34,947 nucleotides of DNA from Capsulimonadaceae bacterium (GCA_031292625.1 JARLGU010000059.1:1-34947); one strand, 5' to 3'. Numbered from the stretch's first letter, positions 27,782-32,430 are shown. Notes: generated by a model from the sequence alone, not told the origin. Made by a program: numbers and translations.

Positions 27782-28942
27782 CTAGCAGTACTCCAGCTTC
27801 ACTTCTTTTTTCAGCGTAAGAAGGAAAGTGGCGATCTCTTCGACGAGTTGGCGGCGAATTGAGATGCTCTTGGGGAGAAGCGGATTTTGATACCACTCAT
27901 TAATGCTCTGGCCAACGACGAAATTGATCGAGTCGGTGTACAGAAGCTCTTTGGCAAGCAGCGCAGCGCCGTTGTTGTCGTCGGTGATCCGCGCCGCCTC
28001 GCCGCGCGCGTTGCGCATCAATTCAAGCGCTTTCGCCATCGTGAAGATGCCCTCGGTGACGAGGTCGACATCGGGCAACGTTCCGGTTGGCGGAACGTCG
28101 GGGCGCATGGTCTCGATGTTGGTCTCGATCTCGACTCCGAGGGAGGCGCTGACGATATTGGCGGTCGTTCCGCCGCAAACGACTCGACGGCCGCGGAAAT
28201 CGAACAGCTTGGCGACGAATTCTTCGTCGTCCTCGGTCTTGAGCGGCGGACCGGTCAGGACCATCAGCGCGTTACGCTCGCGAGCGTAGACGCCGACAAA
28301 CGTCGCATCGTCGCCGATCCGATCCTGATAAAGCCGGCGAGTCTCCGCGACGGCTGCGCTGATAATCTGCTGCGACGTACGCGCGTGGCGCAAGAAGAGG
28401 CTTTCGAGAAACTTGGCGATATTCTCGCGCCCCCAACCGAAGTCCATCACAACTCCGAGCCCTGCGTACAGTACGCCGTCGCTGACCAACCCTACGAAAT
28501 CGCCGCGTTGGAGTTGGCCGTTAGAAAACTTGATCTCCCTGCCCAGAATCGTCTCCGTTCTTATCTGTAAATCCACATTGTGCCCATCTCGAAAAAAGAA
28601 GCTGGGCGGATTGTCGAAATTGACGATGCGAAATTTGCCGGTGGAGCGTTCAATCTCAAGGATCGTAAACGTCGCGTAGGCAACCTTGCGCACCTTGCAG
28701 ATTGGAAGCGTGCCAATGACCGTCTTGATCATCTCGTGAAGCGGCACCTCGGAACGCCCAAGCGTCGCGATGATGCTGCTCGTCAGTGATGACAAGATGC
28801 TCGCCTTGACGCCGCTGCCGAGGCCGTCGGACAGGACGATAATCGTCCGGTCGCCTACGTTGAGCGTCCTCACCTGATCTCCGCACAGCTCCTCGCCGGT
28901 TTTGGTAAGGCTCAGTTCGGCAATATCAAGGAAGCTGTCCAC
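27782..28942 (-). CDS. SpoIIE-family serine phosphatase with an extra C-terminal domain
   Basis: A 386-residue cytoplasmic PPM-type phosphatase. Metal-binding motifs are present: GDQ near 21-23, SDGLGSG with Asp39-Gly40, LVSDGVL near 162-168 and GDDATFVGV near 216-224. The last ~150 residues, beginning around NALMVLTGPPL and including FRGRRVVCGGTTANIVS, are a separate domain I cannot name. It starts with GTG at 28942 behind a GGGAGG site and overlaps the PAS gene by 17 bases. Similar phosphatases occur beside [FeFe]-hydrogenase genes in clostridia, as I recall. The phosphoprotein target (anti-anti-sigma-like?) is not in the window. Confidence 0.9.
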   Translation of the reverse strand: MDSFLDIAELSLTKTGEELCGDQVRTLNVGDRTIIVLSDGLGSGVKASILSSLTSSIIATLGRSEVPLHEMIKTVIGTLPICKVRKVAYATFTILEIERSTGKFRIVNFDNPPSFFFRDGHNVDLQIRTETILGREIKFSNGQLQRGDFVGLVSDGVLYAGLGVVMDFGWGRENIAKFLESLFLRHARTSQQIISAAVAETRRLYQDRIGDDATFVGVYARERNALMVLTGPPLKTEDDEEFVAKLFDFRGRRVVCGGTTANIVSASLGVEIETNIETMRPDVPPTGTLPDVDLVTEGIFTMAKALELMRNARGEAARITDDNNGAALLAKELLYTDSINFVVGQSINEWYQNPLLPKSISIRRQLVEEIATFLLTLKKEVKLEYC

Positions 28943-29447
28943 CAGGCGTATCCTCCCGCTCGATCATGCGAACCAGCTTCAGCAAACTCGCCTTGGTCTC
29001 CGCGGTCACCTCGCCCAAAAGGCTGGCGATCTCCTGCGCGACCTTCATCTGGTTGTCCACGACCTCGTTCACCTTCGCGATAGTCTCTCGCTGTAAGCTG
29101 TTCATTTCCTTGCGCTCGTTCCACTCCGTGGTCAGGTCGACGAGAACGCACGCGGCGAAATCCGTCGACGGGATCGCGAAGACCAGGGCTCGGGCAGCAA
29201 ATCCGAAATCCGGGAATTCGCGTTCAGCACGCTGAACCTCAAGGGAACTCCACGCACGCTGGAACTCCGGAGTCTCCCCCAGAAGCAGCGTCGAATGAAG
29301 CCCGATCGCCGCATCTTCGGTCGTCCGGAACAGGCGGCAGAAGGCAGGATTGACAAACCGGATGATCTCATCACGATCCACCGCGACCATTCCGTTAGGA
29401 TCATAATCCCAGAGCAGCTCCCAAATGCACTTATCAAGTGGCTCCAC
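28926..29447 (-). CDS. PAS domain sensor-type protein, 173 residues
   Basis: A soluble protein with one PAS domain (about 10-112: LWDYDPNGMVAVDRDEIIRFVNPAFCRLFRTT... FVIP-like sheet end) followed by a helical, coiled-coil-like tail (about 112-163, EMNSLQRETIAKVNEVVDNQMKVAQEIASLL) similar to a signalling helix. No kinase, HAMP or DNA-binding domain follows, so it must act through a partner, most simply the SpoIIE phosphatase encoded next. A GTG start at 29447 has AGGAG nine bases upstream and overlaps the ferredoxin gene end by 14 bases. The PAS ligand cannot be read from the sequence. Confidence 0.85.
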   Translation of the reverse strand: MEPLDKCIWELLWDYDPNGMVAVDRDEIIRFVNPAFCRLFRTTEDAAIGLHSTLLLGETPEFQRAWSSLEVQRAEREFPDFGFAARALVFAIPSTDFAACVLVDLTTEWNERKEMNSLQRETIAKVNEVVDNQMKVAQEIASLLGEVTAETKASLLKLVRMIEREDTPGGQLP

Positions 29448-29736
29448 GCGTTAGGTCTCCTGATTGGTTTTCGTCGAGAATGTACGGCAAAATATGCTCG
29501 AAAAAGACCTGATCGACATTGTCCGGAAGGACGCGTTCGACCATTTTGTCGCCGACCTTGATCACAACGCCCTCGCTACAGTTATTGAGGCAAAAATGGC
29601 CCTTCAAATGGACCATGTCCTCAATCTTAAACTCGATGATCAGCTCTTGCAAACGAGGCAAAATCTGAGCAACTCCTAGCCGGTGGCAGGCCGAGCCCAT
29701 GCAAAGCAACATCACGATGCGATTGTCGTCGTCCAC
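29434..29736 (-). CDS. Thioredoxin-like [2Fe-2S] ferredoxin
   Basis: A 100-residue protein of the thioredoxin-fold ferredoxin/NuoE C-terminal type. The cluster ligands are Cys12, Cys17 (CMGSAC) and Cys49, Cys53 (CLNNC), in the usual CX4C...CX3C arrangement, and the strand VVIKVGDKMVERV follows. Comparable small ferredoxins accompany electron-bifurcating [FeFe]-hydrogenases. The GTG at 29736 has GAGGGA upstream. It is the first gene of a three-gene overlapping operon with the PAS protein and phosphatase and is driven by a strong promoter at 29805-29833. It could supply the redox signal for the PAS/phosphatase pair; this is inference. Confidence 0.9.
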   Translation of the reverse strand: MDDDNRIVMLLCMGSACHRLGVAQILPRLQELIIEFKIEDMVHLKGHFCLNNCSEGVVIKVGDKMVERVLPDNVDQVFFEHILPYILDENQSGDLTRGAT

Positions 29737-29804
29737 GGTTGTTCCCTCGTCGGATGATGCAATCCAACGTGCCTTGCATCGCCGTCGTACCTATTGTAGC
29801 AACG

Positions 29805-29833
29805 ATACTACCATTCACTTTTTTGAGTGTCAA
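29805..29833 (-). promoter_or_regulatory. Strong sigma70-type promoter for the ferredoxin-PAS-phosphatase operon
   Basis: Minus strand: perfect TTGACA (29833-29828), 17 bases, TAGTAT (29810-29805). The predicted leader is about 60 bases. The -35 box overlaps an inverted repeat CAATC-AGTC-GATTG (29831-29844) that could be an operator shared with hydE. Confidence 0.65.
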
Positions 29834-29877
29834 TCAGTCGATTGGCGGTTTTCATTCCGTGTCACATCCCCCCAGAA

Positions 29878-29897
29878 TCTAATCATCAGAAATTAGA
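29878..29897. promoter_or_regulatory. Inverted repeat upstream of hydE
   Basis: TCTAAT, eight bases, ATTAGA (29878-29883 and 29892-29897) ends 12 bases before the hydE ATG. It is a candidate operator or leader hairpin. No FNR or Rex consensus is evident. Confidence 0.3.
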
Positions 29898-29909
29898 ACG
29901 GCTATTTAT

Positions 29910-30971
29910 ATGGAACGAGCTGAAATAGAACAGTGGCTGCGTGAAACGGACGATAAGCGGCTAAAGACTCTGTGGGACATCGCCGACAAGGTTCGCAATG
30001 ACCACGTTGGCAGCGCCGTGTATTTGCGAGGGCTCGTCGAGTTCTCGAACAACTGCGCCCGCCAATGCGCGTACTGCGGGCTGCACGCGGGCAATCGCAA
30101 GGTCAACCGCTACCGCATGACCGAGGACGAGATCGTCGCGTGCGCTCATAAGGCCGTAGAGTTCGGCTACGGAACCGTCGTCCTGCAATCCGGAGAGGAC
30201 CGCGCCTATAAGCGCGACGACCTGTCCTCGATCATCCGTCGCATCAAAACGGAGACGCCGCTCGCCGTTACCCTCAGCCTCGGCGAGCGCGAGGATGCCG
30301 AGCTTCTTGCATGGCGCGAAGCCGGAGCAGACCGCTACCTGCTGCGCTTTGAGACGTCGAACCCCGACCTATACGCGATTATTCACCCCAACCTGGCCGG
30401 GAAACCCTCCGACCGGCTCGCGATGCTTCGGCGAATGCGCGATATGGGCTACGAGATTGGCAGCGGCATCATGGTGGGCATTCCCGGGCAGACGTACGCC
30501 GACATCGCGCGGGACATCGAAACGTTCCGCGAACTCGATCTCGATATGATCGGTATCGGACCATACCTCTCTCACCCAGACACGATGCTCGGGCAGCGTC
30601 GCGAGGAATTGACCGCGCCCGGCGGCGAGCAGGCGCCCAGCGGCGAGCTGATGACCTATAAAGCCGTCGCGCTGACACGGATCGCCTTGCCCGAAGCCAA
30701 CATCCCGAGCACGACGGCCCTGGCGACGGTGAACAGGGCAAAAGGGCGCGAACTGGGATTGCGGCGCGGCGCCAACATCATGATGCCCAATATCACGCCG
30801 GTCAAATATCGCAAGGATTATCAGATCTACCCGGGCAAAGCCTGCATCATGGAGGATGCCGCAGCGTGCCACGGATGCATGCTCATGCGCATCGAGGCGC
30901 TCGGACGAACAGTCGGCAGCGGCCGGGGGGATTCCCCGCACTACAAGAACGCAAACCTCGCGCCGGCGTAA
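29910..30971 (+). CDS. hydE: [FeFe]-hydrogenase H-cluster maturase HydE (radical SAM)
   Basis: A 353-residue radical SAM enzyme. HydE acts after HydG in building the azadithiolate-bridged diiron subcluster of [FeFe]-hydrogenase. GLVEFSNNCARQCAYCGL carries the CX3CX2C motif (Cys49, Cys53, Cys56), and residues near the C-terminus (CIMEDAAACHGCM, CX7CX2C) form the second cluster site seen in many HydE proteins. GIMVGIPGQTYADIARDI and NIMMPNITPVKYRKDYQIYPGKACI are family-typical. It is followed by hydG after 66 bases. The ATG at 29910 lacks a Shine-Dalgarno. The closest alternative family, PylB, is excluded by the second cluster motif and the hydG neighbour. Confidence 0.94.
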   Translation: MERAEIEQWLRETDDKRLKTLWDIADKVRNDHVGSAVYLRGLVEFSNNCARQCAYCGLHAGNRKVNRYRMTEDEIVACAHKAVEFGYGTVVLQSGEDRAYKRDDLSSIIRRIKTETPLAVTLSLGEREDAELLAWREAGADRYLLRFETSNPDLYAIIHPNLAGKPSDRLAMLRRMRDMGYEIGSGIMVGIPGQTYADIARDIETFRELDLDMIGIGPYLSHPDTMLGQRREELTAPGGEQAPSGELMTYKAVALTRIALPEANIPSTTALATVNRAKGRELGLRRGANIMMPNITPVKYRKDYQIYPGKACIMEDAAACHGCMLMRIEALGRTVGSGRGDSPHYKNANLAPA

Positions 30972-31038
30972 GATGCGCTCGCGACGCCCGCCATGGCGAG
31001 ACGCGTCGTGGGCGCATGGCAAAAGAACGGAAAAACCA

Positions 31039-32430
31039 ATGACACCAATCACGGAAGACTTCATCAACGACGATTTACTGCACGGCCTATTGGACGTCAA
31101 GCCGACCCAAGAGCGTTTTCAGGAAGTCATCGACAAGAGCATGGCCAAACAGGCGCTCACCGTGGAAGAGTGCGCCGTACTGATCAACGCATCCGCCCCC
31201 GAACAGATCGAACAGATTAAGGAAGCCGCGCGCGAGCTGAAACGGCGCGTTTACGGCAACCGGATTGTTCTCTTTGCCCCACTCTATGTCGGCAACTACT
31301 GCCAGAACGATTGCGTCTACTGCGGGTTCCGCAAATCCAACACGGCAGCCGTACGCCGAACGCTGACGCACGACGAACTCCGCGGCGAAGTTGAGGCCCT
31401 CGAAGATATGGGTCACAAGAGACTGATCCTCGTTTACGGCGAAGCCTACAGCGCCAAGTGGATTGCCGAAACTGTTCAGACGGTTTACGACTTCAAAAAA
31501 GGCCACGGCGAGATTAGACGCGTGAACATCAATGCCGCGCCCATGTCGATCGACGATTACAGAACCGTCAAGCAGGCCCATATCGGGACGTATCAGATCT
31601 TCCAGGAAACGTACCACAAGGAAACCTACGCTAAGGTCCATCCGGGCGGAACGCGCAAGGGCGATTACCTGTGGCGTCTGCACGGATTGGGGCGCGCCAT
31701 GGAGGCGGGGATCGACGACGTCGGCATCGGCGCCTTGTACGGTCTTTACGACTGGCGCTTCGAGACGCTGGGCCTTATCTCGCACGCCCTTCACCTGCAG
31801 AAGCATTACGGCGTCGGACCTCACACGATCAGCTTCCCTCGCCTACAGCCGGCAAGCGGCGTGAACATCGACCAGAAGTGGTTCGTCAACGATGACGAGT
31901 TCAAGCGTCTCGTCGCGATTCTTCGCTTGTCAGTGCCCTACACTGGCATGATCATGACGGCGCGCGAGAGTCCAGAGGTTCGCCGCGAAGTGCTGGGATT
32001 CGGCGTCTCTCAGATCGATGCCGGAACGCGTCTCGAAATCGGCGGTTATAGCGAAGGCAAGCCGCACCAGGAACTCGAGAAGGAACAATTCGCGGTCGGA
32101 GATGCACGCTCACTCGATAGCGTGACCCGCGAATTGTTGCGCGACGGCTTTATCCCGAGCTTCTGCACGGCATGCTACCGCCTGGGCCGAACCGGCGAGA
32201 CATTCATGGAGTTCGCCATTCCCGGCTTCATCGAGCAGTTCTGTACGCCAAACGCGCTGACCACGCTTCAGGAATATTTGATCGACTACGCATCGCCGGA
32301 AACGCGGCAGGTTGGCGAAAAGACGATCGATTCCGAACTGACGAAGATGCCCGAGGGAGTTCTAAAGGACAAGGCCGCGAGAGACCTCAGAAAAATCCGC
32401 GAGGAAAACGCAAGGGACATGTACTCATAA
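31039..32430 (+). CDS. hydG: [FeFe]-hydrogenase H-cluster maturase HydG (tyrosine lyase)
   Basis: A 463-residue radical SAM enzyme that cleaves tyrosine to p-cresol, CO and cyanide and delivers an Fe(CO)2(CN) unit for the H-cluster. The N-terminal radical SAM site is YVGNYCQNDCVYCGFRKSN (Cys88, Cys92, Cys95). The diagnostic C-terminal CX2CX22C auxiliary cluster site is intact (Cys376, Cys379, Cys402, within FCTACYRLGRTGETFME). This motif separates HydG from the related thiamine enzyme ThiH, which lacks it. The ATG at 31039 begins MTPITEDFIN; the longer frame upstream is unrelated. hydF is not found downstream. Confidence 0.96.
   Translation: MTPITEDFINDDLLHGLLDVKPTQERFQEVIDKSMAKQALTVEECAVLINASAPEQIEQIKEAARELKRRVYGNRIVLFAPLYVGNYCQNDCVYCGFRKSNTAAVRRTLTHDELRGEVEALEDMGHKRLILVYGEAYSAKWIAETVQTVYDFKKGHGEIRRVNINAAPMSIDDYRTVKQAHIGTYQIFQETYHKETYAKVHPGGTRKGDYLWRLHGLGRAMEAGIDDVGIGALYGLYDWRFETLGLISHALHLQKHYGVGPHTISFPRLQPASGVNIDQKWFVNDDEFKRLVAILRLSVPYTGMIMTARESPEVRREVLGFGVSQIDAGTRLEIGGYSEGKPHQELEKEQFAVGDARSLDSVTRELLRDGFIPSFCTACYRLGRTGETFMEFAIPGFIEQFCTPNALTTLQEYLIDYASPETRQVGEKTIDSELTKMPEGVLKDKAARDLRKIREENARDMYS

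Follow-up and report, generated by a model that had tools for sequence, protein, structure and literature searches.

A ferredoxin-PAS-phosphatase operon resembling HydS without its hydrogenase domain lies divergent to hydE and hydG in an Armatimonadota genome

Gene content of the locus

The window analyzed here, a stretch of 34,947 nucleotides, is an entire contig (C27) of an Armatimonadota genome (Capsulimonadaceae bacterium; 5.77 Mb, 65 contigs, 96% complete). Two adjacent genes encode the H-cluster maturases HydE and HydG (Table 1), as originally predicted: both proteins score above the curated family cut-offs and contain the expected Fe-S cluster motifs, namely CX3CX2C (CARQCAYC at residue 49) and CX7CX2C in HydE, and CX3CX2C and the C-terminal CX2CX22C in HydG. 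The HydG reading frame as listed (30856-32430) is over-extended; the ATG at 31039, which is located 67 bases after the HydE stop codon, is the likely start, and both motifs are intact in the resulting 463-residue form. Neither HydA nor HydF was found in the window, and there is no match to the H-cluster domain (PF02906) on this contig, consistent with the prediction that HydF and the catalytic subunit are missing locally.

Starting 173 bases away, the same distance as noted before, and transcribed in the opposite direction is a trio of genes for a [2Fe-2S] protein, a stand-alone PAS protein and a serine phosphatase. The overlaps between these genes (14 and 17 bases) and the GTG start codons throughout were reproduced, and each start follows a GGAG/GAGG-like site. 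The [2Fe-2S] protein contains the ligand motifs CMGSAC (C-x4-C) and CLNNC (C-x3-C), and these four cysteines are invariant in the alignment. The promoter-like sequence originally proposed to drive the trio is indeed present upstream, but the match by itself is only suggestive because the region contains 4 such sites compared to 1.8 expected. An inverted repeat overlaps the -35 element of this promoter, and no known operator was recognized in it. Control of the trio by Rex was rejected given that no Rex-box-like site was detected in the window even when 3 mismatches were allowed; two such sites occur in one of the HydABC loci of the same genome (C47, see below).

Table 1. Coordinates of the features at the locus (window positions) and of related loci elsewhere in the source genome
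Feature	Position	Strand	Properties
SpoIIE/PPM-type serine phosphatase	27782-28942	-	386 aa; PF07228, 72 bits
Extra C-terminal domain of the phosphatase	28279-27782	-	about residues 222-386
Stand-alone PAS protein	28926-29447	-	173 aa; PAS core and long C-terminal helix; homologue of the HydS C-terminal sensor segment
[2Fe-2S] thioredoxin-like ferredoxin-type protein	29434-29736	-	100 aa; PF01257, 26.6 bits
Complete trio	29736-27782	-	
Promoter-like site TTGACA-N17-TAGTAT	29833-29805	-	10/12 matches; TG before -10 (extended -10)
Inverted repeat	29828-29847		8 bp; TGTCAATC/GATTGGCG
HydE	29910-30971	+	radical SAM maturase; TIGR03956, 326.6 bits (cut-off 254.6)
HydG	31039-32430	+	radical SAM maturase; TIGR03955, 504.4 bits (cut-off 312)
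C20 locus	L015:11197-18413		
C10 HydA-chemoreceptor fusion	L016:389-2240	-	
Second HydG (C59)	L111:7474-9215		921 bits

The phosphatase has a PP2C core and an additional C-terminal domain

The AlphaFold model of the phosphatase (pLDDT 87) adopts the PP2C fold, a fold search with this protein retrieved PP2C proteins exclusively, and the metal-binding aspartates (D39, D155, D211 and D212) are invariant. The core and these residues are shared with the SpoIIE/RsbU phosphatases of the PPM family, to which the protein can be assigned, and Mn/Mg-dependent dephosphorylation of Ser/Thr residues is its predicted activity. Unlike the SpoIIE/RsbU enzymes, the window phosphatase contains an extra domain of approximately 165 residues at the C-terminus, which is an alpha/beta domain in the model and yielded no match in a Pfam search. 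The same domain is common to the phosphatases that are linked to the putative sensory hydrogenase HydS and to those, like the window enzyme, that are encoded next to a PAS protein devoid of the hydrogenase domain (hereinafter, headless). Across its full length, the window phosphatase is 35% identical to the HydS-linked phosphatase from its own genome, and the identity with the phosphatase from the HydS operon of Ruminococcus albus is 38.7% over 98% of the length.

The PAS protein corresponds to the C-terminal segment of HydS

A profile built from the stand-alone PAS proteins of the window and ten other carriers of the trio matches, with its positions 13-166, residues 417-570 (approximately) of HydS, that is, the last 150 residues, with domain E-values down to 5e-35; in a profile-profile comparison (hhalign), the headless PAS and HydS match at 99.9%. 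That the sensor segment at the C-terminus of HydS aligns with nearly the entire PAS protein is a new finding. The C-terminal helix is almost invariant (VVDNQMKVAQEIAGLLGETTAET in the alignment), with the near-invariant segment VVDNQMKVAQEIAxLLGExTAET. The PAS model is nearest in fold to short LOV and WalK PAS domains, a similarity that is uninformative about the cofactor. Compared to group C [FeFe] sensory hydrogenases, the protein has the HydS-type C-terminal PAS segment and lacks the H-cluster domain, with its 173 residues accounting for the PAS portion only; the two other components of a HydS-type operon, an adjacent [2Fe-2S] protein and a SpoIIE phosphatase with the family-specific C-terminal domain, are both present.

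The homology of the PAS protein to the HydS C-terminus, together with the occurrence of full-length relatives of the phosphatase in HydS operons, indicates that the trio is the HydS system minus the hydrogenase domain. By sequence comparison, the PAS protein is HydS without its hydrogenase domain, a point absent from the original prediction, and each gene of the trio has its counterpart in the known Fd-HydS-SpoIIE operon, of which the trio is a headless form. The operon of this type in R. albus 7 (pRUMAL01), which includes HydA2 (named in PMC11837493), shares with the window the [2Fe-2S] protein, the PAS segment and the full-length SpoIIE phosphatase, including the C-terminal domain of the latter. 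The R. albus genes are arranged as Fd-Fd-HydS-SpoIIE, with a 4Fe-4S protein next, at the position of HydA2, and HydS contains Fe-S domains and an H-cluster domain before the PAS segment whereas the window protein consists of the PAS segment alone. HydS of Thermotoga maritima is similarly a PAS-bearing putative sensor encoded in a hydrogenase operon (PMC10055695) and, unlike the trio, includes an H-cluster domain; the [2Fe-2S] protein from that operon was characterized by Pan et al. 2003, as cited in PMC10055695. The hfsABCD genes of Thermoanaerobacterium also combine a PAS domain and a serine phosphatase next to hydrogenase genes, as in the headless type (PMC11837493, PMC5707799), but HfsB, which is of the HydS type, is a hydrogenase-PAS fusion, unlike the window protein, and this likeness is by description, not by sequence.

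Hydrogenases and maturases elsewhere in the source genome

The search for HydA, HydB, HydC and HydF in the rest of the genome that the original prediction called for was positive: we identified four proteins with PF02906 (on contigs C47, C5, C20 and C10) and a single HydF, on C14, beside an aspartase/fumarase-type lyase. Thus, the possibility that the maturases serve something else because the genome has no HydA or HydF does not hold; the maturases are needed given the presence of HydF and the PF02906 proteins. Two of these proteins belong to trimeric HydABC sets, Rex-HydC-HydB-HydA on C47 and HydC-HydB-HydA on C5, in which HydA contains the canonical H-cluster motifs (TSCCP, MPCxxK and L3) and is accompanied by NuoF-like and NuoE-like subunits, a make-up that suggests bifurcating H2 metabolism. 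On C20, a HydA-like protein whose C-terminus contains an Fe-S motif and a PAS-type segment (HydS) is followed by a SpoIIE phosphatase and preceded by a short [2Fe-2S] reading frame, so that the Fd-HydS-SpoIIE order is found in the source genome as well. Divergent to these genes are those for an ArsR-type regulator and complex-I-like subunits; the latter set resembles an energy-converting hydrogenase-related complex and lacks the nickel cysteines. A [NiFe] hydrogenase was sought in the source genome and rejected, with no protein detected by PF00374 and no nickel cysteines in the complex-I-like genes of C20. The fourth protein, on C10, is HydA fused to a chemoreceptor signaling domain; an in-frame TAA between its two N-terminal 4Fe-4S motifs may mean that this is a pseudogene, that the sequence contains an error or that translation starts further in.

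The HydE of the window is the sole one above the cut-off in the genome, so the locus probably serves the HydABC, HydS and other HydA proteins encoded elsewhere. A second HydG, encoded on C59, outscores the window HydG, to which it is 45% identical; neither HydE nor HydF was found beside it. Its gene follows that of a small TM1266-like regulator, and recombinase-like genes lie upstream. Among the matches listed for the other sampled genomes that share the family or order of the source genome, there is none to PF02906, and hence the hydrogenases of the source genome look either acquired or singular within the family.

Distribution of the headless trio

We scanned 84,980 species genomes with an alignment of headless phosphatases as the query, so that the carriers were gathered with a headless query, and identified nine headless loci, each with the genes for the [2Fe-2S] and PAS proteins in front of the phosphatase gene. 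Five of these are cyanobacterial (Oscillatoria, Phormidium pseudopriestleyi, Laspinema), and the remaining four come from other bacteria (Armatimonadota G059, Dependentiae L080, Sedimentisphaerales (Planctomycetota) L081, L082). In the phosphatase tree (28 sequences, unrooted), the 11 headless proteins, spanning Armatimonadota, Cyanobacteria, Planctomycetota and others, form one side of a branch with the support of 100/99. Because the tree is unrooted, it leaves undecided whether the H-cluster domain was lost in the headless form or gained by HydS.

In the five cyanobacteria, the trio is inserted into the hoxEFUYH operon between hoxH and the gene for the hydrogenase maturation protease (order HoxE-F-U-Y-H, Fd, PAS, SpoIIE, protease), with HypA-B-F-C following in the longer loci. 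Hox is a [NiFe] enzyme unrelated to [FeFe] hydrogenases, unlike the hydrogenases of the source genome, and no PF02906 protein was found in the cyanobacterial carriers. Among 386 genomes of the cyanobacterial phylum, the phosphatase scores are bimodal, with 12 genomes at 613-751 bits and 133 at 194-277 bits; the latter are taken as HydS-type, all 4 low-scoring loci that were checked being HydS-linked. Small genomes of this phylum (L166, L167, L168) encode Fd-HydS-SpoIIE-Fd-HydA-like modules; their size hints that they might belong to non-photosynthetic lineages of the gut. The trio is located directly behind hoxH in 8 of the 12 high-scoring carriers (locus L077 of genome G293 and 7 of the 11 further ones sampled), whereas the other four have a lone phosphatase gene, in two cases beside a HoxW-like protease. 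HoxU is encoded by all 12 carriers compared to 88 of the 386 genomes overall (hypergeometric probability of 1e-8, rising to 2e-6 when the HydS-type genomes are left out), although both values overstate the significance because the related cyanobacteria are not independent.

Phosphatase and PAS go together: exactly one headless PAS was detected in each of the 17 headless-phosphatase genomes searched, including those in which the genes are unlinked, and in none of 3 Hox-bearing cyanobacteria without the headless phosphatase. The Armatimonadota carriers G058 and G059 possess Hox genes, and neither PF02906 nor HydG was found in either; in these two genomes and in L082, the trio is encoded away from hydrogenase genes. 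Nevertheless, every examined headless-type genome encodes a Hox or an [FeFe] hydrogenase. Most relatives in Armatimonadota belong to Rex-HydC-HydB-HydA-(Fd)-HydS-SpoIIE loci. The comparison of neighborhoods thus runs against the trio being unlinked to hydrogenases everywhere, its relatives residing in hox and Fd-HydS-SpoIIE operons. The association with [FeFe] maturases that the original prediction emphasized did not extend to the closest relatives of the trio, which in cyanobacteria and two Armatimonadota accompany [NiFe] Hox in genomes without [FeFe] hydrogenases.

Proposed function and alternatives

We consider it probable, with appreciable room for doubt, that the trio is the output half of a putative HydS sensor without the H-cluster domain, paired in this genome with the sole HydE and one of the two HydGs, and functions as an electron or redox relay. 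The [2Fe-2S] protein would take or sense electrons from the hydrogenase/diaphorase or from the ferredoxin/NAD(P)H pool, and the PAS protein would pass the redox state to the phosphatase through the conserved helix or coiled coil; the phosphatase, in turn, would dephosphorylate a regulator that is phosphorylated on Ser/Thr and modulates the genes of hydrogenase and fermentation. The enzymes regulated in the source genome would be its two HydABC sets, for which the HydE and HydG of the window and the distant HydF would provide maturation. For the window itself, the link to hydrogenases is suggested by the maturase adjacency in one genome plus the behavior of the relatives. The presence of the trio alongside both [NiFe] Hox and [FeFe] enzymes implies an association of the relay with NAD(P)-linked hydrogenases regardless of kind. 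H2 sensing at an H-cluster is impossible in those carriers that have no H-cluster protein, which argues for an electron-state input in them; what the relay reads is probably not H2 at an H-cluster but the state of electrons or redox. The redox relay of the original prediction is supported by the homology to HydS operons and the hydrogenase linkage in other genomes, and its placement next to [FeFe] maturases is not a feature of the relatives. In Thermoanaerobacterium, mutants of hfsB and of the serine phosphatase gene hfsC show altered fermentation products and gene expression (PMC5707799, PMC11837493); by analogy, these deletion effects support the output of the proposed relay, not its input.

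Alternatively, the trio could be a relay with a general redox or partner-switching role, located near hydrogenase genes by chance and acting, for example, on a sigma factor for anaerobic growth. The three genomes with the trio unlinked to hydrogenase genes, the position of the trio behind a Rex gene in the planctomycete L081, and the resemblance of the phosphatase to RsbU/SpoIIE enzymes with anti-sigma antagonists as their substrates are compatible with such a role. We nevertheless regard it as unlikely in view of the hydrogenase encoded by every headless-type genome examined and the location of the trio inside the hox operon in most cyanobacterial carriers. The trio might also still report H2, with the PAS protein pairing with an H-cluster protein made elsewhere, such as the C20 HydS or a group-B enzyme: the source genome does have a full HydS, and in Dependentiae L080 a group-B-like HydA precedes Fd-PAS-SpoIIE. 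However, HydS of C20 comes with a PAS and a phosphatase of its own, and the cyanobacterial carriers, G058 and G059 lack a PF02906 partner altogether, making a split sensor quite improbable. Least plausible, with a very small chance of being correct, is the regulatory outpost of the original prediction, in which the phosphatase would specifically control the expression or activity of HydE and HydG. The divergent arrangement with so short a spacer and the maturase genes near HydS-SpoIIE in L064 and L069 fit this scheme, but in the other carriers found the headless trio is not beside HydE/HydG, and most of these lack HydE/HydG.

Extending the electron-relay interpretation across the carriers, one could tentatively propose, with the balance tipping slightly against it, that a relay free of the H-cluster, which either derives from the HydS system or is its ancestor, serves both [FeFe] HydABC and [NiFe] Hox through the electron state of the shared diaphorase/[2Fe-2S] components. 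If so, HydS, whose label of hydrogen sensor rests mainly on the PAS domain, would be a variant, later or specialized, of a sensor that detects hydrogenase electrons more generally. A natural hydrogenase-free form with the same phosphatase, present in several phyla and in the cyanobacterial hox operon, separates the signal output from H2 sensing and allows both the input of the relay and the target of the phosphatase to be tested in organisms relevant to hydrogen production. In the open-licence literature, we found nothing direct on the trio in hox operons or on SpoIIE with HydS, and no description of the trio in two papers on the Lyngbya hox operon; an earlier mention elsewhere is possible. 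In two of the trio carriers (L155 and L156), a gene for a hybrid-cluster protein is located between hoxF and hoxU, as in Lyngbya and Arthrospira.
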